From contig NZ_JAZHRR010000001.1 in NCBI RefSeq assembly GCF_036924515.1, positions 3,877,001-3,941,000 on the forward strand: a stretch of 64,000 nt of DNA, given 5' to 3'. Every line of letters starts with the position of its first letter. Position 1 is the first letter of the stretch. The DNA comes from Bradyrhizobium sp. AZCC 1610 (GTDB lineage: Bacteria > Pseudomonadota > Alphaproteobacteria > Rhizobiales > Xanthobacteraceae). The notes beneath the pieces were generated by a model. It had not been told where the DNA came from, did not search any database, and was given only the letters and a program-made list of their open reading frames with translations. The position numbers and the translations under genes are program-made. Of the stretch, positions 44,714-60,553 are shown piece after piece.

Positions 44714-45748
44714 ATGCCTATGCCCCGCCGGAAATATGCTTGGGAAAAGCTATCGGATGAGCAGTTGCTCCAGCAACGCCTCAGTAGTCTGAGGGTTGCG
44801 GTCGAAGGCACTTGGCTCGAGGATTGTATCAGCACTCTTTATGAAGAGCTCGAAGAGCGGGGCATCCGGCTGCGGCCACATACATGGATATCGAGCGAAT
44901 GGTTTAGTCCGGCAGATGTGCCCGGCATTGCCATCCCATTCTATCTCACCCATCCCCGCCTGATAAAGATCGAGAAGAAAATGATGCTCGACGTCGAGGG
45001 CGGCACCTGGTCCGAATGCATGGCCATCCTCCGCCATGAGGCAGGCCATGCCATCCAGCACGGCTATCAGCTGCAGCGCCGCCGGCGTTGGCAGCAGCTG
45101 TTCGGCCGGTCCTCAAAACACTACCCGCGCTACTACCGGCCGAATCCAGCCAGCCGGCAATATGTCCAGCATCTTCGGCTCTGGTACGCGCAGAGCCATC
45201 CGGACGAGGATTTCGCTGAAACCTTCGCGGTGTGGCTGCGGCCGCGTTCGAACTGGCGGACGCGCTATGCCGGCTGGCCAGCGCTGAAGAAGCTCGAATA
45301 TGTCGACGAACTGATGGAGGAAATCGCCGGGAAGCGGCCGCTAGTCACGACGCGGGAGCGTGTCGATCCGCTGCATGAACTCAGCCAGACACTCGGCGAC
45401 CACTATAAAAAGAAGCAGGCGTTCTACGCCTTCAGGCCACCGAAGACTTACGACCGCGACCTCTCCCGGCTCTTTTCCGCCGATCCACGGCATCGCCGGG
45501 GGCAGCCGGCTTCTACATTCATCAGGCGGCACCGCGCCCACTTCAGGCAGCTGGTCGCGCGGTGGACGGGCGAGAACCAACTTACGCTTGATGCTGTACT
45601 TGACGACATGATCTCCCGCTGCCGAGAACTCAATCTGCGCGCTGTCGGCTCCGATCGGAAGCTTGTTACTGACTTCACCGTCCTGTTGACCGCCAAGACC
45701 ATGCACGCGCTGTTCGGTCCCTCGCGGCGAAAATGGATCGCGCTATGA
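44714..45748 (+). CDS. putative zinc metallopeptidase
   Basis: 344 residues. The HEAGH motif (His108, Glu109, His112, in LRHEAGHAIQHG) plus a downstream Glu169 in DEDFAETFAVW fit a gluzincin-type zinc site. No signal peptide, so probably cytoplasmic. The gene overlaps the next by ATGA, so it forms a two-gene unit with the ATP-grasp ligase; I recognise this pair as recurring in rhizobia, perhaps for modification and processing of a peptide, but know no established pathway. No strong ribosome binding site before ATG 44714. Confidence 0.85.
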   Translation: MPMPRRKYAWEKLSDEQLLQQRLSSLRVAVEGTWLEDCISTLYEELEERGIRLRPHTWISSEWFSPADVPGIAIPFYLTHPRLIKIEKKMMLDVEGGTWSECMAILRHEAGHAIQHGYQLQRRRRWQQLFGRSSKHYPRYYRPNPASRQYVQHLRLWYAQSHPDEDFAETFAVWLRPRSNWRTRYAGWPALKKLEYVDELMEEIAGKRPLVTTRERVDPLHELSQTLGDHYKKKQAFYAFRPPKTYDRDLSRLFSADPRHRRGQPASTFIRRHRAHFRQLVARWTGENQLTLDAVLDDMISRCRELNLRAVGSDRKLVTDFTVLLTAKTMHALFGPSRRKWIAL

Positions 45749-46771
45749 GACGCCTGCGCGTTCTGGTGCTCATGCATCCGGACTTCGTGCCCCCGGACTC
45801 CACCGATGGATACACTGCGCGGCAAATCAACGAATGGAAAACAGAATACGACGTCGTGAGCACCTTGCGTGCGGCCGGCCATGATGTTCGCCCGCTCGGT
45901 GCGCAGGAGGAAATCAAGCCGGTGCGCGAGGAGATCGAAAGTTTCAAGCCGCATGTGGTATTCACGTTGCTGGAGCAGTTTCACAACGAGCCCACGTATG
46001 ACCAGCACGTCGCAAGCTATCTCGAACTGATGCAGATCCCGTATACCGGGTGTAACCCGCGCGGTCTGATCTTGGCGCGCGGCAAGGATCTGTCCAAGAC
46101 ATTGGTGCACCATCGCCGGATCGCGGTGCCGGCCTTCGCCGTATTCCCGATGCGCCGAAAGGTCAAACGTCCAGCGCGTCTTGCGCTGCCGTTGATCGTC
46201 AAGAGCCTGAACGAGGATGGATCCCGGGGTATCTCGCAGGCATCCGTCGTCGATACGGACGAGAAGCTCGCAGAGCGCGTCGCCTTCGTCCACGAGCGGA
46301 TCGGAACCGCCGCAATCGCCGAGCAATATATCGAGGGACGTGAGCTTTATGTCGGGGTGCTCGGCAACAATCGGTTGCGAGTGTTGCCGGTTTGGGAATT
46401 GAAATTCGGCACCATGGGCGGCCAGGCCATAGCCACCGAGAAGGTCAAACACGATCCCGGTTACCAGGAGCGCGTGGGAATTGTAGATGGGCCGGCCAAG
46501 AACCTTGGCGCCGGAGGCACACGCTCGCATTCAGCGAACAGCGAAACGCATCTACCGAACACTGGGGCTCGATGGATACGCGCGCATCGACTTTCGCCTC
46601 TCTGCCGACGGCACCCTGTATTTCATTGAAGCGAACCCCAATCCCGAAATCGCGAAGAGCCAAGAGTTCGCTACAGCGGCCCGGCATGACGGACTTGATT
46701 ACCCGGGCCTCTTGCATCGCATTCTGGCGCTCGGAATAAGCCGGACATACGCCGGCGCATCCGTAGGCTGA
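45745..46771 (+). pseudogene. ATP-grasp ligase (D-Ala-D-Ala ligase-like), frameshifted
   Basis: The first frame (45745 to about 46500) reads MRRLRVLVLMHPDFVPPDST, a preATP-grasp fold, then SYLELMQIPYTGCNPRGLIL and the ATP-grasp loop LPLIVKSLNEDGSRGISQAS. After about residue 252 it becomes nonsense, while the +1 frame continues with LAPEAHARIQRTAKRIYRTL, GLDGYARIDFRL and the Mg-binding FIEANPNPEIAK. One extra base (or two lost) near 46500-46512 explains this. Without repair the product lacks the metal-binding Glu/Asn of the second half. The start overlaps the preceding stop as ATGA. Could be a sequencing error. Confidence 0.8.
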
Positions 46772-50528: not shown

Positions 50529-51011
50529 TACAGCCCTCTTTGCCGTCGGCGTGAGCCTTGATCGACGATGCTTTTTATGTAGGCACCTGAACTTGTTAGA
50601 ACCAGTCTATGTCGGATTTTCCAGCCGACGCACCACAAATCTCGGCCATAGAGCCGCGCATCCAAAGATCGCAATTTCGTGCCGGGAGTAACGGGGCCGC
50701 GTTTCGGTTTGTGTCGTCCGGGAGCCTCGCCGCGAAACGGCATGACATCCCTGCTCTGTCCGCTTTCGCGCTATATCGCCCCGGGAGGTCAGATGGTGCA
50801 GGGACCACACCGGACGATGCGGACGATTCTCGCCGCTCGCCGTCGCCGATGGCCATGCCCAGTCCAAGCCTGAGCTGAGAACCGAGCCGACCGGAACCGG
50901 GGGGAATCACCGGTTCCAACATTGCGGGGTTGCAGCATTGGCGCGGAACATCCGGTCGCGCCAACCATTGTCTTGCCACCTACTCTGGGATGCTAACGGA
51001 GGAACCCATTT
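50529..51011. other. intergenic region, about 480 bp
   Basis: Divergent gap between the oxidoreductase and the 143-residue protein. Overlapping frames on both strands lack start signals. Nothing else supported. Confidence 0.5.
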
Positions 51012-51443
51012 ATGGCATACCAACCCAATCCGAACGATCCCTACCGGCCTGGCCTGAGCGATGAAGAAATCCGCCACCAGGCCCGCCTCAACAGTCTGGA
51101 CAATGAGTTGCAAGCCGATCCCAGCCTCGGCGAGGGTTCTCCCAGCGGCGCCAAGGTCGCCATGTTCGCCGTCGCCATCGCGGTGGTGCTGGGCGCGCTG
51201 TTCTATGGCCTCAACAACACGACCGTAAACCAGGCAGGCACCTCGCCGGACAACCAGACGGCACAGACGCAGCCGGCCAACCCTTCCGCGCCTCCGGGCA
51301 TGCGTGACGTGACGCCCCGCAGCCAGCCCGGCACCACCACGGGTGCCGCGACCAACCGCCCGGCGGCTCCGGCTGATTCGAGCACGGACATGAACAAGGC
51401 GACCACACCGCCAGCCGACAACGCGCCGGCCAGCAAGCAGTAA
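51012..51443 (+). CDS. single-pass membrane hypothetical protein
   Basis: 143 residues. Soluble acidic N-terminus (residues 1-45: YQPNPNDPYRPGLSDEEIRHQ), one membrane helix (KVAMFAVAIAVVLGALFYGL, about 48-68), then a disordered Thr/Pro/Ala/Gln tail with NQTAQTQPANPSAPPG. Topology probably N-in, tail in periplasm. Function unknown. GGAGG nine bases before ATG and a terminator immediately after support a complete monocistronic gene. Confidence 0.75.
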   Translation: MAYQPNPNDPYRPGLSDEEIRHQARLNSLDNELQADPSLGEGSPSGAKVAMFAVAIAVVLGALFYGLNNTTVNQAGTSPDNQTAQTQPANPSAPPGMRDVTPRSQPGTTTGAATNRPAAPADSSTDMNKATTPPADNAPASKQ

Positions 51444-51465
51444 CGGTCATCATCCGAAACGACGC

Positions 51466-51497
51466 GCAGCGGGCCAACCGGCCCGCTGCTTTTTTTA
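51466..51497 (+). terminator. intrinsic terminator
   Basis: Perfect 10-bp stem (GCAGCGGGCC with GGCCCGCTGC), 4-base loop AACC and a T-run of eight. It terminates the gene at 51012-51443. Confidence 0.95.
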
Positions 51498-51580
51498 TGC
51501 TCTAGGCGTGGACTCATTAGTACGCAGCAAAATTCGCATCGAGGCTCCGGCTTCTGCCGCCTTTCGAGAAATATCGCGCT

Positions 51581-53056
51581 CTAGCGTGGGGCCTCCGGCT
51601 TCTTGCCGCGTCCGAGCGCGAATTGACCGACCGGACCCTCTACATGGAATTCGAGCCCCGTCATTTTTGCAAACAGATCGATGTTGCTGGTGCCGATCGC
51701 ACAGCCACCAAGGCCCATATCGGTCGCCGCCAGGTAGAACGTCTGGATCATGCTGCCGACATCCTTCAGGATCAGCGAGTACGCGATTGAGCTGTATTTC
51801 CAGGAGATCCGCCCAAAACGCGCGGCGATCGTGATCAGGACCTGCGGCGGACCGGGTGCGTCCATGGCAAACTCGGCTGCCGCCGAAAGCGCCTGGAGTT
51901 GCTGTGCGGAGACCCCGATCACTACCAACGCGTGGCCGCCCGCGTCGTAGTGGTAAAATCCGCGTTCAAGCCCTTCGCAATTCGAGACCGCCAGATACAA
52001 TTCCAGTTCGTACGCGCTGCCGGCCGATGGATAGGGCCTTGTGCTGTAGGTGATCTCAGGATTGCCTTCGAAATTCGCGCCGCTATTCCATTCCGATAGG
52101 ACTCTGGCAGCGCCATCTAGAAACTGCGCCAGTTCGGCGAGCGTGACCGGATGCTCGTCATCGAAATCTCGGACTGAATGGCGTTCGCGCAACAGCTTTG
52201 CGAAGGGCGAGATTGGATTCGAGGTGAAGAATTTGCGCAGGTCGATCTTCTTGCCGGGCCAAGGCGGACGCACCGCGGGCAGCGGTGAAACGACGCTTGC
52301 ATAGGCGAAGGTGCTGCCAACCGGATTGGCCTGTCGGCCCTCGGTGCTCCGCGTGTGAAACACGAAATCGTGGAAATCCCAGAGAACGAGATTGCCGTCG
52401 CCTTCATTCACCCGAAGGCCGTCGCCGCTTTTCGCATTGAGCTTGAGCAGGAACTGGCTATCCAGCAGCAGTTCGAGCAGATCGAGGTTGAAAGAGGCCG
52501 CGTGGCGGCGAAGCCTGCTGATCTTGTGAGGCCGCGAGAGCGCAGCGAGGGTGGCGGCAATGGCGGGATCGCGAATTCGAAACAGCGCCCCGGCGCGCGG
52601 CGATTCCAGCACCATTTCGTTGCCACGCCGGCGCAGATAGGCAAAGCGCGACAGCACGATGGTGTCACTCTCGCCGAGCTTTGCGCGTTGCGGCCAGTAT
52701 TCGGGGACCTGGGGTTCGATGACCACGATGTCCTGCTCGTCACGCGGAAAGGACAGGCGATATTCGAGAAGCCCGTGCCGCGCCAGTCGATGCGCCAGGA
52801 CATCGACCTCCCTCGCGATGGCGCTCTTGCCGGCAAAGGACGCGAGCGGCAGGCCGTCGGTCAGATTTCGCGCGCGGTCCATCGCGGCCGGGCTGAGGTG
52901 TCCCAGATTGACAAGATAGCCGTCCACGGAGGCGGCGATGCTTCCGTCCGCCTCCATCTGAAAGGAGAAATGACCGTTCAATCGGGCGGCGATGACTGGC
53001 GCGATCTTCCTGGTCGGCATTTTCCGGGCAGCGCGCACGAAAGATCGGCCTTTCAC
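51581..53056 (-). CDS. SagB-type FMN dehydrogenase of the TOMM cluster
   Basis: 491 residues from GTG 53056. The N-terminal half (about 1-285) is a SagB-specific extension with winged-helix-like segments; the C-terminal nitroreductase domain has LLRERHSVRDFDDEHPVTLA near 295-312 (the FMN-binding R-x-S-x-R-x-F), a YPSAGSAYELELYLAV segment and a late GLGGCAIGTSNIDLFAKM. In TOMM pathways this enzyme oxidises azolines to thiazoles and oxazoles. Its start overlaps the stop of the cyclodehydratase gene by 4 bases (GTGA), so stoichiometric expression is expected. It ends the cluster; the next gene converges. Confidence 0.92.
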   Translation of the reverse strand: MKGRSFVRAARKMPTRKIAPVIAARLNGHFSFQMEADGSIAASVDGYLVNLGHLSPAAMDRARNLTDGLPLASFAGKSAIAREVDVLAHRLARHGLLEYRLSFPRDEQDIVVIEPQVPEYWPQRAKLGESDTIVLSRFAYLRRRGNEMVLESPRAGALFRIRDPAIAATLAALSRPHKISRLRRHAASFNLDLLELLLDSQFLLKLNAKSGDGLRVNEGDGNLVLWDFHDFVFHTRSTEGRQANPVGSTFAYASVVSPLPAVRPPWPGKKIDLRKFFTSNPISPFAKLLRERHSVRDFDDEHPVTLAELAQFLDGAARVLSEWNSGANFEGNPEITYSTRPYPSAGSAYELELYLAVSNCEGLERGFYHYDAGGHALVVIGVSAQQLQALSAAAEFAMDAPGPPQVLITIAARFGRISWKYSSIAYSLILKDVGSMIQTFYLAATDMGLGGCAIGTSNIDLFAKMTGLEFHVEGPVGQFALGRGKKPEAPR

Positions 53057-55299
53057 GTGTGCGGCAGGAAGGGAGTGAGTTCGCTTTCCGGCCGCGGGTG
53101 ATCCAATAATCCAAGCCTCACCGGAACATCGTAAAGCCGGCCCGGTGCGAAGCGGCGATAGAAGTGCCGCAGGCCCGGAACAAGCACGCGAACGACAGGG
53201 ACCTCAACGTCGGGCCGCGTCTGGTCGAGCACGAGGAAATCGTAACCTGCCTGGGTCGCGATCTCGACACAGGCATTCACCTGATCGCGCGTATTGTCGT
53301 GAACCTTTAGGTCGGGAGCCGGCGGAACGATCGGATTGTCGCTCGGGACCAGGAATGGATAATCTTCCAGTCGCAGCGGCTTGACACCGTCAAGCGTCGG
53401 CTTCTCACCGCTGGCGCCGCCCATCATGCCAATCGACATGAACTGGGTCAGCTCGGTGAGCGAACGCAGCAGGGCTATGCGGCGATCGAAATGCGCGCCG
53501 GAACCGAACTCGATATTCTCGTGGCCGTTCTGCATCCAGTGCATGATCGCCACGTAAGAGGGAATGCCGAGATCGCTGGTGACGTCGAGCACCCACAGCC
53601 GGCGCCCGGCATCAGCAAACTGGGCTTGCAGATCCCGGACATACGAATCGCCGAATTGCTTAAGGTCAACCTCGGCACGCTGCAGCCGGTTGTACCACCA
53701 GATGGCGTAGGCATCGCGCTCGATCAGTTCGAGGAAGCCCTGAACGATGGCTTCCTCGCGAGTGTTGCCGGCCGCGCAACCGTTTGAGTCCGTATGGAAG
53801 CCGCCATAGAAGAAGTAGAGCAGACCGGTCGGAAGATATTTGAAACGCTTGTCGCGCAACGACCAGACCGGCGACCACTCGGTCCTCATCGAAGGATCGA
53901 GCGGCTCAGGAACCGGATGTGAATCGTCCGGCTGCTCGGCATGCCTGTTTTGAAACTGCGTTTCGCTGAAAAGCTGGACGTCATTGGGGTGAAGGGCGTC
54001 GCCGGGAGCGAAATCGGTAAAGCGGCGCGCCGTCCTGATCTCGTCACCCTGGAAAATTCCCGAATAGCGCTCGATCGCCTCCATCAGCGCGCTGGCCTCG
54101 CCCTGCTCAGCCGTGGAGCCCTTGCCGAAGCTGCCGCCGCTCAGTCCGGACCTGAGCTGATCGACGCTTTGGGCTGGCCCAGAGAAATTGTGATAGGCAA
54201 AAAAATTGGTGTTCATTGGCAGATCGACCTCGATCCGCTCGAGCCGCGTAACCACTCCGGTCAGCGGGCTTACATGCTTGTGGAAGCGGGCCACGGTGGC
54301 CCGAGACGTCACCGTGCGATATCCACCGCTGGTCATGATGAGCTTGCTGCCTTCGGCGATCTCGATTGACGCCGCCGCCCGGCGTGGACTCTGCAGTTTC
54401 TTGCTGCCGCAGGTGAGACATTGCGGGCGCCGCGCGACAAAGTGCTTGGCGATGACCGCACCAGTCAGATCGAGGCTCGCAATATGATCGCGCAGATCGG
54501 TGCGAAAGCCTGAAGCAATCGCTTTCGTGATTTCGACGGCAGCGAAGTGGACCGCGATCTGTCCAACGGAGTCTTGGACCAGGGGCGATACGGCGACCGC
54601 CTGCGCCGGCCCGCGGTCGAGGAACCCCTTGATCTCGCGGTTGCGGATCATGCGATCGAACAGACAATTCCAGCAGGCGCTGTCGCCCGGTTTGAACACG
54701 GGCCCCACCAGTGGAAACACGCCAGACGGCTGCACCAGTAGCCAGGGCGTCTTGTCGGCCACGCGTTCCCGGTTCATCTCGGCCAGCCGCCGGTCCAGAT
54801 AGTCGTTCACCAGCGTGATGATGAGCCTTGGCGACCGCTTGGCGATTTGAACGCCGAGTTTGCTCAAAGCCGCGCTCAGTTCCCTGGCGCCTTTGACATC
54901 GATCGACTCCACCTGCACGGGGCAATTGCGGAGATTCTGCTCCGCGACCTCGGGAGGCAGGCCGAGGCTCGCCCAATATCCAGCGACGGCGCCATCGAAT
55001 GCGTGCGATGTTCCTGTAACGACGTATCGGCGGTCGAACAGCCGCTTGATCGCTTCCTCTATCTTGTCGGTCGGATAGCTCTTCGAAAGCTGGCGAACGA
55101 TCTCTGGCGCAGACTTTCCATTTTTTCCGATCGCCGCGGCCACCGCACAATACAGATCGCCATGCAGGAAGAACTTGCGATCCTCGGAATAGAGGCAGAC
55201 CACATCGGGAGGAAGTACGTAGGCGGTGAAGTTCGGCGCAAATCGCAAGATGTCCTTGCGGGTCTGCCTCGCAACGCGGCTCTTGCGATTGGCTGTCAT
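53053..55299 (-). CDS. fused E1-like/YcaO cyclodehydratase (TOMM)
   Basis: 748 residues. Residues about 1-300 form an E1-like/leader-peptide-binding part with a zinc tetrad (C209-x-x-C212, C294-x-x-C297). The YcaO part from about 360 has the ATP motifs GKGSTAEQGEASALMEAIER (392-411) and GCAAGNTREEAIVQGFLELI (508-527, followed by ERDA). Function by family: ATP-dependent backbone cyclodehydration of Cys or Ser/Thr to azolines, guided by the precursor leader. The C-terminus ends ELTPFLPHT, a Pro-containing tail like that of YcaO cyclodehydratases. No purine-rich ribosome binding site is evident at ATG 55299. Confidence 0.93.
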   Translation of the reverse strand: MTANRKSRVARQTRKDILRFAPNFTAYVLPPDVVCLYSEDRKFFLHGDLYCAVAAAIGKNGKSAPEIVRQLSKSYPTDKIEEAIKRLFDRRYVVTGTSHAFDGAVAGYWASLGLPPEVAEQNLRNCPVQVESIDVKGARELSAALSKLGVQIAKRSPRLIITLVNDYLDRRLAEMNRERVADKTPWLLVQPSGVFPLVGPVFKPGDSACWNCLFDRMIRNREIKGFLDRGPAQAVAVSPLVQDSVGQIAVHFAAVEITKAIASGFRTDLRDHIASLDLTGAVIAKHFVARRPQCLTCGSKKLQSPRRAAASIEIAEGSKLIMTSGGYRTVTSRATVARFHKHVSPLTGVVTRLERIEVDLPMNTNFFAYHNFSGPAQSVDQLRSGLSGGSFGKGSTAEQGEASALMEAIERYSGIFQGDEIRTARRFTDFAPGDALHPNDVQLFSETQFQNRHAEQPDDSHPVPEPLDPSMRTEWSPVWSLRDKRFKYLPTGLLYFFYGGFHTDSNGCAAGNTREEAIVQGFLELIERDAYAIWWYNRLQRAEVDLKQFGDSYVRDLQAQFADAGRRLWVLDVTSDLGIPSYVAIMHWMQNGHENIEFGSGAHFDRRIALLRSLTELTQFMSIGMMGGASGEKPTLDGVKPLRLEDYPFLVPSDNPIVPPAPDLKVHDNTRDQVNACVEIATQAGYDFLVLDQTRPDVEVPVVRVLVPGLRHFYRRFAPGRLYDVPVRLGLLDHPRPESELTPFLPHT

Positions 55300-55455
55300 G
55301 GAGGCAGCACGCGGATTTTGTTACCTGTCATTTCAGATCGCCAGCGCACCACGAACCGTTCGTCCCGTCGGACTCGTGTACCGAGGTCGACTGAGTTGGA
55401 ACACACTCGCTTGTCATCGGCAAGCTGCCCAGGCTGGCAGGCGAACGGTGCAACG

Positions 55456-55496
55456 AAAACAAGAAATTGGCCGGGTCGATCGCTAGCCCGGCCAAT
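55456..55496 (-). terminator. hairpin between precursor and cyclodehydratase genes
   Basis: On the minus strand a perfect 10-bp stem (ATTGGCCGGG with CCCGGCCAAT) with an 11-base loop, followed by TTTCTTGTTTT. It lies about 45 bases after the precursor stop codon and 160 bases before the cyclodehydratase start, so it probably attenuates read-through and lets the precursor mRNA exceed the enzyme mRNA. Confidence 0.8.
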
Positions 55497-55538
55497 GAAA
55501 TTGTGGCTTGTCGATACGCAATCAGCAAGCGTCGTTGC

Positions 55539-56054
55539 CTAGCACCAGCGGCACCGGCCCCAAGATGCACAGCAACCTGCACATCCTATGCCTATGCCTA
55601 TGCCTGGCACGCCCACCCCTATCCAACCAACGCCGCAGCCACCACAGCCACCGCAGCCGACGCCGCATCGGCAGGCTCTGCATCCACAGCCTCTGCAACC
55701 GCGACAACCACCGCATCCGTGGAAGCCACCGCATCCCCGGAAGCCGCCACATCCGCGGCAACCACCGCATCTGCCGCAGCCGCGCTGGGCCAGCTGCACA
55801 CCGCTTAGGTCGTTGTCGAAGAGTTCGTCGTCGAAGAGATGGAAGGTGGCGAGGCTGACGTCGGAAAGTTCCTCTTCACCGAGCGCGATCATCATGCCAG
55901 GAGCGAAATTCCGCCCCTGTTGAACGTCACCGGTCGGTACGGCCGAGGCTGATGCGCCTCCTGCTAGCGAAAAAGTTAATCCGGCGGCACCCAACGCCGG
56001 TACTGCGGTTCTGGCTACTCGCTTCTTTTTCGAAGCTTGCTTCACCCGCGGCAT
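55539..56054 (-). CDS. TOMM precursor peptide, Cys/Gly/Arg-rich core
   Basis: 171 residues from ATG 56054 (GGAGG ahead). A basic start (MPRVKQASKKKRVARTAVPA) and hydrophobic run (LGAAGLTFSLAGGASASA) look like an export signal or a leader helix. A leader segment ALGEEELSDVSLATFHLFDD is followed by ELFDNDLSGVQLAQ, and the core from about 92 is RGCGRCGGCRGCGGF..., with 20 cysteines, mostly as CGG or CRG units, ending RCRWC. Cys is nearly the only residue available for heterocyclisation in the core (one Ser, no Thr). It is transcribed with the cyclodehydratase and dehydrogenase genes. Confidence 0.9.
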   Translation of the reverse strand: MPRVKQASKKKRVARTAVPALGAAGLTFSLAGGASASAVPTGDVQQGRNFAPGMMIALGEEELSDVSLATFHLFDDELFDNDLSGVQLAQRGCGRCGGCRGCGGFRGCGGFHGCGGCRGCRGCGCRACRCGVGCGGCGGCGVGWIGVGVPGIGIGIGCAGCCASWGRCRWC

Positions 56055-56292
56055 GGTCGCATCCTCCAACGTTGCAAGAAGGATCTCCGCGGGAGCGATC
56101 CTACGCTGACCAAATAAGGCAGGCAAGATTCATGCACACACGAAAACGTAATGACGCTCGTTCAGGTAGCATTCATGTTCATGAACAATGTCGCCGCATT
56201 TTCGTCGATTGCAACGACGGCCTGCGCAGAGTGCAACGAGTGCGACTTGGTGCAGTGCGCAATCGTCTCCAAGCTTGAACGGAGAAATTGGC

Positions 56293-57162
56293 GTGGTCAA
56301 TCAACTCGGACGCTTCGCCTGGTATGAGCTCCTGACCACGGACGTCGCGGCAGCAAGCGCCTTTTATGGCAAAGTCGTCGGCTGGGGTGCGAAGGATGCG
56401 TCGACTCCGGAACTGGCCTACACGGTGCTTACTGCTGGCGAAGTTCCGCTGGGTGGGCTTATGGATCTCCCGGAAGAGGGGCGGCGATTGGGGGCAACTC
56501 CGAGATGGGTCGGCTACGTCGCTGTCGATGACATGGATGCGACGGCCACACAGATCAGGCGTCGTGGAGGCGCTGTCTTGCTGCCGCCAACGGACAGCAA
56601 TATCGGCCGGGTTTCAGTGGTCGCCGATCCGCAAAAGGCGACTTTTGCGCTTGTCAGCGGACTGACGTATGGCCAACGGCAACCCGGCGGGCTGGACGAG
56701 CTGGGCCGCGTGGGCTGGCACGAGTTGCTGGCTGAAGACCGGAACAAGGTCTTTGATTTTTACGGCGAGCTTTTTGGCTGGCAGAAGGCCTACGGTGAAA
56801 CCGATCCGGCAGACCTGTATCAATCGTTTTCGGCGGCCGGGCAGACGATCGGTGGCATGCTCACCAAGCTTCCGAACGTGCCGCAGCCGTGTTGGCTATA
56901 TTACTTCAATGTCGACGACATCGGCGCGGCAGCCAAGCGCGTCAATGCTGGTGGAGGCCGCATCCTCCAGGGGCCAATCGAATTGCCAGACGGTTGCTGG
57001 ATCGCGCGATGTGCCGATCCCCAAGGCGCCCTGTTTGCGCTGCAGGGTGTTCGAGGTCAGAGAGACACCGAGCAACCCTCCGCCTCGGAAGTCGCTTGGT
57101 CCGCCAAGTGGGGTGGCATTGCTTCACAGGGCAGGATGGTGCTGCCAAAGCCGAAGCGTTAA
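56293..57162 (+). CDS. two-domain VOC family protein
   Basis: 289 residues from GTG 56293 (GGAGA seven bases upstream). Two VOC modules: FAWYELLTTDVAAASAFYGK and VGWHELLAEDRNKVFDFYGE begin the halves, each followed by a WGAKD or WQKAY strand, and end in DPQKATFAL or DPQGALFAL. Such doubles are often annotated glyoxalase/bleomycin-resistance. It is divergent from the TOMM precursor across 238 bases, so both may be driven from the same region. A protective role toward the TOMM product is possible but unproven. Confidence 0.9.
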   Translation: MVNQLGRFAWYELLTTDVAAASAFYGKVVGWGAKDASTPELAYTVLTAGEVPLGGLMDLPEEGRRLGATPRWVGYVAVDDMDATATQIRRRGGAVLLPPTDSNIGRVSVVADPQKATFALVSGLTYGQRQPGGLDELGRVGWHELLAEDRNKVFDFYGELFGWQKAYGETDPADLYQSFSAAGQTIGGMLTKLPNVPQPCWLYYFNVDDIGAAAKRVNAGGGRILQGPIELPDGCWIARCADPQGALFALQGVRGQRDTEQPSASEVAWSAKWGGIASQGRMVLPKPKR

Positions 57163-57395
57163 GAGTGCTCGCAGGTACCAACCGTGATCAGTTCGCCACG
57201 CGCGACCGCGAGAAGCGCGGAGATAATGGCCCGACGCGCACTCCAGCTTGCGGCTGAGCAATCTCCGCACTCCCAAGCGTTGCAGCCACAACTAGGCCGT
57301 CCGGCTAACAACCATGCTGTTCCCTACAGTGCATAAGGCCGCTTGTGGCACCAAAGCGGACGTCGGCCGGCCACTCTGATTTATGGGTTCATGCT

Positions 57396-58208
57396 TTAGC
57401 TGAACATCTTGTTGAGTTCGCCGCCGGAATAGCCGTTGGCGAATTCGGTGAACGTCCCCTGCTCCGCCATCTCCTTTGATGCCTTCATGAAGCCGGCCCA
57501 TGCCATCCGCGCCAGCGAGGCGCCGACGCTGATCCGGCGCACGCCGAGATCGGAGGCCGCCTTCAGCGACGGGCCGGCCGCGCCGACCAGGAGATTGACG
57601 GGCTTTGGATGCACCGCCTTCACCACAGCCGAAATCTCTTCCGGCGTCGCGATGCCGGGCGCATAGAGGCAATCGGCGCCGGCTTCGGCATAGGCGGTGA
57701 GCCGGTCGATCACCAGCTTCAGATCCTTCTGCCCGCGCAGGAACGCCTCGCAACGGCCGGTAAGCAGGACGCCGCTGCTGTCGGCATCGATGGCCTTCCG
57801 CGCCGCCCTGATGCGATCGACGGCAAGCGCCGAATCGAACAGCGGTTTTGCGTTATCTCCGGTAAAATCCTCGATCGAAAGGCCTGATACGCCGGTCTTC
57901 ACAGCGCGGGCGACATTGGCGCCGACCTTGTCCGGTTCGTGCGCAAAGCCGTCCTCGAAATCGGCATTGACGGGGATATCGACCGCCGCGCAGATCGCGG
58001 CGAGATGCGTGCAGACATCATCGACCGTGACGCGGTTGTCGGCCTTCGCCAAAGTCCAGGCAAAGCCTGCGCTGGTGGAGGCCAGCGCCTTGAAGCCGAG
58101 ATGCTGCAAGGCCTTCGCGCTGCCGACATCAAAGGGATTGGGGATGATGAAGCATCCGCTCTCGTGCAATTTCCTGAACGCGGCGCGCTTGTCAGCAGAT
58201 GTCAGCAT
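57396..58208 (-). CDS. isocitrate lyase/PEP mutase family protein
   Basis: 270 residues, TIM barrel of the PEP mutase/isocitrate lyase superfamily: PNPFDVGSAKALQHLGFKAL, a metal-binding-type VNADFEDGFAHEPD, GLSIEDFTGDN and LLTGRCEAFLRG, then DCLYAPGI. Family members include oxaloacetate decarboxylases, 2-methylisocitrate lyases and PEP phosphonomutases; KKCGH of true isocitrate lyase is absent, so assignment to one activity is not possible. GGGGAG before ATG. No phosphonate genes nearby. Confidence 0.9.
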   Translation of the reverse strand: MLTSADKRAAFRKLHESGCFIIPNPFDVGSAKALQHLGFKALASTSAGFAWTLAKADNRVTVDDVCTHLAAICAAVDIPVNADFEDGFAHEPDKVGANVARAVKTGVSGLSIEDFTGDNAKPLFDSALAVDRIRAARKAIDADSSGVLLTGRCEAFLRGQKDLKLVIDRLTAYAEAGADCLYAPGIATPEEISAVVKAVHPKPVNLLVGAAGPSLKAASDLGVRRISVGASLARMAWAGFMKASKEMAEQGTFTEFANGYSGGELNKMFS

Positions 58209-59406: not shown

Positions 59407-59527
59407 CGTTTTCGGGCGTGAGTGCCGAATGAGGTGGGCCTGATCTCCGCAAAAAGTGAAGCCGCGCCGGCTTTACCGCGCGCGTTCATCGCATCAATAA
59501 GGTCGCATCCCAAAGATGGAGCCTGCG

Positions 59528-60553
59528 ATGCGACGCGCGATCATGATCTGCTTTTCGATTATCGTGGGCGGCCTCTCCTCCTGCGCGCTGGCAGCTGAAC
59601 CGGCGGCGCGCGAACCCTCTGTGCGCGAACCGTATGGCATCGCGCTCGAAGGTTTTGCGTATCCCTACCCCGTCCGTCTGCTGCCGCTGGTGAATGACGG
59701 TGAGCAGGTGCGGATGGCCTATATGGACGTAGCTCCTGCGCAGCCGAACGGGCGCACCGTGGTGCTGCTGCACGGCCGCAATTTTCCATCGAGCTACTGG
59801 GCGCCGGTCATCCAGACGCTAAGCAATGCCGGCTATCGCGTGGTGGTGCCGGACCAGATCGGCTTCGGCAAATCCTCCAAGCCGCAAGGCGACCTGCATT
59901 TCGACACGCTGGCGCGCAACACGATCGCACTGCTCGATCATCTGCAAATCGCAAAGGCCGACATCGTGGCGCATTCGCTCGGCGGCATGCTCGGGGTGCG
60001 GATCGCGCGCGCCTATCCCGACCGGATCGCGCATCTGGTGCTGACCGCCCCGATTGGCCTGGAGGATTATCGGCTCTACGTGCCGCCGACGCCGACCGAT
60101 AAGATTCTGGAGAATGAGGACAAGCTCACCGCCGACGGCTATCGCAAGCAGTTAGAGACCAATTACGCGCTGAAGCTGCCGCCCGAACAGGTCACGCCGT
60201 TCATCGATGCGCGTTTCAACATCAAGGGCAGCGCCGAATATCCGCGCTGGCTGCGCGCCTTCGTCAGCTCGGCGCAGATGATCTACCGCGAGCCTGTGGT
60301 GCACGAGATCCCGCTGATCACGCAGCCGACGCTGTTCGTGATGGGCGCCGACGATCACAACGCGCCGGGAAGAGCCAATGCGCCGGAGGCGCTGCGCGCA
60401 AAGATGGGACAGAATGCCGAGCTGGCCAAGGCGCTCGCCGCAAAGATGGCGAACGGCCGGGCCGAGGTGATCCCCAACACCGGGCATCTGGTCTTCCTGG
60501 AAGCGCCGGCCAAATATGATGAACTGGTGCTCGGATTCCTCGCCGCGCCGTAG
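59528..60553 (+). CDS. exported alpha/beta hydrolase
   Basis: 341 residues from ATG 59528 (GGAG seven bases upstream). Signal peptide about 1-23 (IIVGGLSSCALA, lipobox-like Cys). Alpha/beta-hydrolase core: VVLLHGRNFPSSYWAPVIQT with HG, the nucleophile elbow VAHSLGGMLG, and late MGADDHNAPG with a catalytic Asp and PNTGHLVFLEAPAKYDELVL with the catalytic His. The exported form in rhizobia is of unknown substrate, perhaps an ester or lactone. Isolated transcription unit. Confidence 0.92.
   Translation: MRRAIMICFSIIVGGLSSCALAAEPAAREPSVREPYGIALEGFAYPYPVRLLPLVNDGEQVRMAYMDVAPAQPNGRTVVLLHGRNFPSSYWAPVIQTLSNAGYRVVVPDQIGFGKSSKPQGDLHFDTLARNTIALLDHLQIAKADIVAHSLGGMLGVRIARAYPDRIAHLVLTAPIGLEDYRLYVPPTPTDKILENEDKLTADGYRKQLETNYALKLPPEQVTPFIDARFNIKGSAEYPRWLRAFVSSAQMIYREPVVHEIPLITQPTLFVMGADDHNAPGRANAPEALRAKMGQNAELAKALAAKMANGRAEVIPNTGHLVFLEAPAKYDELVLGFLAAP

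Follow-up and report, generated by a model that had tools for sequence, protein, structure and literature searches.

A probable four-gene azole-peptide locus in Bradyrhizobium: fused heterocyclase, SagB-type oxidase, signal-like precursor and a VOC-fold partner

Thiazole/oxazole-modified microcins (TOMMs), or linear azol(in)e-containing peptides (LAPs), are ribosomally synthesized and post-translationally modified peptides (RiPPs) recognized by a YcaO protein with an E1/ThiF-like partner or fused part, an FMN azoline dehydrogenase, which is usual though not obligatory, and a precursor whose gene adjoins those of the enzymes and whose leader is followed by a core rich in Cys, Ser and Thr. All of these occur together in Bradyrhizobium sp. 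AZCC 1610, in the 64,000-nucleotide stretch analysed here (the window; assembly GCF_036924515.1, contig NZ_JAZHRR010000001.1, positions 3,877,001 to 3,941,000), which lies in a 7.75 Mb, single-contig genome. The probable best explanation is a four-gene azole-peptide locus in which a heterocyclase and a SagB-type oxidase would form azoles, the same enzymes would modify extra precursors, and a vicinal oxygen chelate (VOC) protein would be a working part, whatever its role.

Compared with described systems, the predicted azole RiPP is closest to cyanobactins in its enzymes and to heterocycloanthracins in its core make-up. Cyanobactin pathways (LynD/TruD with ThcOx/CyaGox) supply the closest solved relatives of both enzymes and share the fused E1-YcaO architecture; by contrast, the PatA/PatG-type protease/macrocyclase that defines cyanobactins has no counterpart that is constant in the 21 loci compared below or present among the window neighbours scanned. 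The E1-YcaO C-terminus differs as well, being usually Pro-rich in the class and [LH]PHT here, in 11 of 12 aligned sequences. Phazolicin likewise combines a precursor, a YcaO protein and a dehydrogenase, with azoles expected, but in its phzEACBD cluster the modification genes are separate, an exporter (PhzE) is encoded and the product is 27 aa long (PMC7136475, PMC6783444; both, like PMC12452194 and PMC10783134 below, are cited from excerpts), whereas here E1 and YcaO are fused, no exporter was found nearby and 81 residues follow the leader. Heterocycloanthracins share the Gly-rich core with repeated Cxx units (PMC7136475), and one precursor homologue among the matches listed (P0082) carries their UniRef family name. 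At E ≤ 1e-3 neither Pfam nor NCBIfam gives a hit to the window precursor, although a heterocycloanthracin model is probably included; for want of a model hit the heterocycloanthracin label was not adopted. Bufferins and oxazolins, too, start from Cys-rich precursors that carry a secretion signal at the N-terminus (PMC12452194), but rely on MNIO and DUF2063 proteins instead of YcaO and SagB; no MNIO enzyme is present among the constant locus genes or the window genes scanned. No description of the locus was found among the open-licence PMC papers listed, covered mostly as titles and abstract openings: "rhizobi" does not occur in the main text of a 2015 TOMM survey (PMC4603692) and occurs twice in a 2020 paper on YcaO mining, where the rhizobial passages in the excerpts concern phazolicin (PMC7136475).

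The enzyme genes lie on the minus strand and overlap by 4 nt (53053-53056), as the first-pass annotation had it. The E1-YcaO fusion (53053-55299, 748 aa) scores above the NCBIfam cut-offs for TIGR03604 (220.9 bits; cut-off 219.25) and TIGR03882 (142.1; 36.9), and the SagB/ThcOx-type FMN azoline oxidase (51581-53056, 491 aa, GTG start) above that for TIGR03605 (179.5; 78.4), with Pfam matches to ThcOx and Nitroreductase. Over residues 17/18-743, E1-YcaO aligns with LynD (4v1t, E 8e-142) and TruD (4bs9, E 2e-136); the closest solved relative of SagB is CyaGox (5lq4 and 8pz5, E 7e-51), with WKY..AYSLILK common to both sides. Two CxxC pairs and EASALMEA are invariant in the 12-sequence E1-YcaO alignment, which includes the window's sequence. 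Judged by sequence, the pair is a LynD/TruD-type fused heterocyclase and a CyaGox/ThcOx-type azoline oxidase, in line with the thiazole/oxazole-forming families and the likely thiazole product proposed in the first-pass annotation.

The precursor gene (55539-56054, minus strand) encodes 171 aa with 20 Cys and is no chance reading frame. At least 5817 of 7995 candidates scored are homologues at E ≤ 1e-3, a count inflated by the Gly/Cys-rich core, and the 90-aa leader alone was therefore used for the genus scan. In 46 aligned sequences a Lys/Arg-rich start is followed by a segment resembling AVPALGAAGLTFSLAGSASA and then by a variable linker, the motif LGEEELxDVSLATFxxFD, a Cys/Gly/Arg core and a C-terminus like CCASWGRCRWC. 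In the window, residues 1-37 (55944-56054) form a basic, hydrophobic segment with an Ala-x-Ala, resembling a signal peptide. Residues 58-71 (LGEEELSDVSLATF; 55842-55883) form the conserved acidic motif, the presumed heterocyclase recognition sequence, with positions 58, 61, 62, 65, 66 and 68-71 invariant across the 46 sequences. The core (residues 91-171; 55542-55784) ends in CCASWGRCRWC, and all 20 Cys are C-terminal to the leader and motif. It is under purifying selection: core pN/pS between the window and seven relatives is 0.00-0.30 and lower than leader pN/pS in six of the seven, as computed on aligned positions only, in a gapped, repetitive alignment.

The product is most likely a peptide in which many Cys are present as thiazole rings, and its making may be pictured in four steps, given here and below in falling order of certainty. 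In the first, which we regard as very probable, the heterocyclase would bind the precursor via the acidic LGEEELxDVSLATF motif and, driven by ATP, convert core Cys to thiazolines; with the same high confidence, held jointly for the two reactions, SagB would oxidise these to thiazoles, up to 20 in number, each lowering the mass by about 20 Da.

What else belongs to the locus? Divergently from the precursor, across a 238-bp gap, a gene on the plus strand (56293-57162, 289 aa, GTG start by alignment) encodes a two-module protein of the glyoxalase/bleomycin-resistance (VOC) fold, matching PF00903. Among 265 Bradyrhizobium genomes, taken as species, leader and VOC (E ≤ 1e-60) occur in an identical set of 116; E1-YcaO is found in 117, the additional case being a fragment (residues 504-748) in a genome that is 81% complete, and no genome has a leader without E1-YcaO. 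Families were compared, without individual annotation, around 21 loci (the window and 20 of the 116). Gene order and strand are identical in 21/21, and VOC is the sole further family present in all of them, despite several unrelated sets of outer flanks; the next most frequent family outside the cluster span reaches 11. Thus, no transporter or peptidase is constant, as the first-pass annotation would lead one to expect.

The association extends beyond the genus. In other genera of the family, 21 genomes had a match, of which 16 were read with surroundings, along with two diverged ones (three fragmentary ones, G338, G360 and G377, were left out). All three genes are present in 15 of the 16 loci and VOC in 14, four times upstream and divergent and ten times downstream of SagB and convergent, the other two loci being cut by contig ends. 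A further set of named loci, the best 80 among the matches listed, overlaps with the G-numbered loci (L176 and L066, judged by length, represent one contig), and the counts are not independent. Here 69 of 79 have all three genes, in the same order in 69/69, and the remaining ten are cut at contig ends; a conserved precursor thus stands beside homologous YcaO genes, as the first-pass annotation required, in these 69 and in the 21 genus loci. VOC accompanies the three genes in 59 of the 69 (51 upstream, eight downstream), one more being cut at a contig end and nine lacking it. The strongest sign that VOC belongs to the locus is that the linkage persists though the position has moved. By sequence it is a divergent two-module protein, counted here as the fourth locus member. 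The first-pass annotation described the other three genes correctly and overlooked this one, together with the signal-like N-terminus and the extra precursors; its statement that the adjacent 5 kb hold no transporter holds up (a Pfam scan of neighbouring window genes within 5 kb found none), but the claim that no immunity gene is near does not, with VOC, a candidate for one, 238 bp away.

Prochlorosin precursor genes are dispersed. Similarly, 69 of the 185 leaders found in the genus are extra, spread over 34 of the 116 genomes with up to six per genome and with broadly similar cores; the window's genome has one precursor only. Among the matches listed, the extras lie on other contigs or far from the cluster. 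Twenty of the 69 were read with their surroundings: none adjoins a VOC gene, the commonest neighbour occurs in three, and the C-terminal motif is kept in 16. The second step, the modification of such precursors, where present, by the same enzymes, is likely, and one enzyme with many precursors would recall the prochlorosin system (PMC10783134), although prochlorosins are lanthipeptides. One extra precursor outside the genus adjoins its own cluster (L139:3684-4124, minus strand), and another copy (L103:5124-5510, minus strand) has a degenerate core with two Cys; the degenerate or truncated cores of these two copies suggest birth and decay of precursor genes.

How would the product leave the cell if the locus encodes neither a transporter nor a leader peptidase? 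In the third step, which we put at nearly even chances, the peptide would be exported by the general secretory route via the signal-like N-terminus and cut at Ala-x-Ala; a dedicated transporter and leader peptidase would then be unneeded, and the mature product may retain the acidic motif. A hydrophobic stretch is found in 178/178 precursors, with a net charge of at least +3 ahead of it in 166 and an Ala-x-Ala behind it in 172. Of 162 precursors, 126 satisfy the basic, hydrophobic and Ala-x-Ala criteria jointly, compared with 13 of 465 background open reading frames (ORFs) of the same loci. These are simple rules, with a hydrophobicity cut-off taken from the precursors and starts trimmed by rule, and the calibration is rough; here and in the distance comparison below, L251 and L252 were left out, as were VOC-less loci and E1-YcaO ORFs no longer than 700 aa. 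In the fourth step, proposed tentatively, VOC would act in the cytoplasm, binding the thiazole peptide to protect or escort it, much as bleomycin, which also bears thiazoles, is bound by VOC resistance proteins.

Several observations weigh against parts of this scheme. The signal-like stretch is mildly hydrophobic (best 12-mer mean 1.74) and, across the 46 sequences, more conserved than a plain signal peptide requires, so that the enzymes may read it too; moreover, 36 of the 162 precursors fail the joint criteria, and the hydrophobicity cut-off was itself derived from the precursors. VOC is absent from nine named three-gene loci with sequence on both sides (the right flank is only 1.3 and 2.0 kb in two of them), six of which are titled Methylocystis or Methylocystaceae, and is therefore unnecessary for the chemistry. 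The correlation between VOC and E1-YcaO pairwise distances (r 0.945, 58 loci) would equally follow from vertical descent alone, SagB and E1-YcaO giving 0.936. Finally, the closest solved VOC folds among the matches listed, Rv0577 and AbxF, are a kinase-inhibitor homologue and a biosynthetic enzyme, not drug-binding proteins. The 50 structure matches listed include no classical one-module protein that binds bleomycin; the fold, with PF00903, is that of the bleomycin-resistance proteins, and the two modules per chain are a difference.

The conserved N-terminus could instead signify that nothing is secreted: the segment would belong to the leader and be recognized by the enzymes, or by a protease of the cytoplasm such as TldD/TldE, and the peptide would act inside the cell or on lysis. 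We consider this doubtful, albeit with something to be said for it. The genome has two PmbA/TldD-type genes, in keeping with such a protease, though the family is also present in 10 of 14 control genomes. On the other hand, the rarity of the joint signal pattern in the background speaks for export, as does the basic, hydrophobic start that persists, by eye, in Methylocystis-type relatives. The two readings can both hold: according to preliminary results, a bufferin signal peptide doubles as part of the recognition sequence (PMC12452194).

As for VOC, a serious rival view makes it a tailoring enzyme that adds further modifications to the peptide, with no part in immunity or escort. Its absence from nine named loci tells against this, although an optional tailoring enzyme could be missing too. 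In the alignment, Trp (W10, W142) and Ala (A119, A249) of both modules stand at positions usually taken by metal ligands, which would argue against metal-dependent catalysis; a tailoring role seems rather unlikely.

Would a thiazole peptide with a possible protection gene adjoining be a weapon? Anti-rhizobial azole peptides are known from rhizobia (PMC6783444), and the basic, Gly-rich core would suit a phazolicin-like bacteriocin against related rhizobia, its pump being encoded elsewhere. Phazolicin immunity, however, is provided by the exporter of its cluster (PMC6783444), and no such family is constant in the 21 loci. Strong constraint on the core among close relatives fits poorly with a fast-diversifying weapon, yet is compatible with one and not decisive. 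We found nothing that supports the antimicrobial product suggested in the first-pass annotation, the core being mostly more constrained than the leader and not diversifying, and hold a bacteriocin to be improbable on balance.

A periplasmic metal-handling peptide, bufferin-like, is a further alternative, and quite an unlikely one. The Cys-rich precursor, its signal-like start and the want of a constant transporter would suit it, and a TonB-dependent receptor gene stands upstream in four of nine Methylocystis-type loci, the four being close relatives. In the genus loci, however, no further family, metal-linked or other, is constant, and once cysteine has become a thiazole its free thiol is gone.

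Of 391 genomes sampled in the family, 63 have E1-YcaO relatives at E ≤ 1e-40, a few of them of a diverged class; of 385 sampled across the taxonomic class, 15 do, the window's genome included. The other 14 of these (33-44% identity, some partial) were treated as other classes: the 10-17 kb retrieved for them contain neither such a precursor nor VOC, and two have a distant SagB. Four diverged family loci (L141-L144) likewise lack precursor and VOC, with a distant SagB in three; two of them, L141 and L142, are diverged genus E1-YcaO loci and have no precursor of this family nearby. Diverged fusions of 34-39% identity in the genus members G058, G114, G109:C3 and G117:C11 represent another class. 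Besides Bradyrhizobium, the named records among the matches listed include Methylocapsa, Methylobacterium crusticola and Methylocystis; Methylocystis-type loci without VOC are L236-L239, L243, L244 and L250, and in this type an amidase gene lies downstream in five of nine (for this and the receptor gene, one example each was checked with Pfam). Two records, L200 (Frankia sp. RB7) and L247 (a metagenome-assembled Opitutaceae genome), hold a Bradyrhizobium-type locus and are probably mislabelled or contaminated.

The gap separating the precursor gene from E1-YcaO contains a hairpin, GC-rich and followed by a T-rich tail (55469-55493, minus strand; intergenic fold z -2.46), that resembles a terminator or attenuator. 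Of 90 intergenic stretches, 63 contain such a hairpin, compared with 7 once their mononucleotides are shuffled, with stretches of <70 or >700 nt, or between genes on different strands, left out; the loci being related and partly from the same genomes, the count is a measure of conservation, not independent evidence. The hairpin would suit a partial terminator that keeps precursor output above that of the enzymes. A scan for promoter and terminator consensus sequences gave two and six sites where 1.7 and 5.9 would be expected, none of them the hairpin, and there is no Rfam match in 51000-57500. Among the neighbours, an alpha/beta hydrolase gene (59516-60553) with a weak S33-aminopeptidase match was rejected as a member, being present in just 4 of 21 loci, and the Peptidase_Mx and ATP-grasp-like genes 5-7 kb past SagB were also excluded. 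On the plus strand, an ORF at 45733-46629 matches the beginning of the D-ala D-ala ligase C-terminal family and a second one in another frame (46487-46771) its end; the pair (45733-46771) is a frameshifted or decaying ATP-grasp gene. Elsewhere in the genome, a second, stand-alone YcaO gene (485 aa; G000:C1:5614330-5615280, L002) lies beside BTAD-type and helix-turn-helix regulator genes, with no connection to the azole locus seen there.

The locus is common in the genus, being present in 116 of 265 species, and named records with it include B. elkanii, B. lablabi and B. jicamae, which are legume symbionts. More speculatively, and with a low probability in our estimate, it may represent a polythiazole class widespread in Hyphomicrobiales, with export by the precursor's own signal, holding by VOC in the cytoplasm, scattered precursors, and neither a transporter, a leader peptidase nor a conventional immunity gene. 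Secretory signals are highly unusual on RiPP precursors, and use of the secretory route in the natural host is demonstrated, according to the excerpts, for bufferins only (PMC12452194). If the signal segment works, the locus would be a YcaO counterpart of bufferins; consisting of a precursor gene, a pair of enzyme genes and a single partner, it makes modification, export and self-protection directly testable in laboratory strains.
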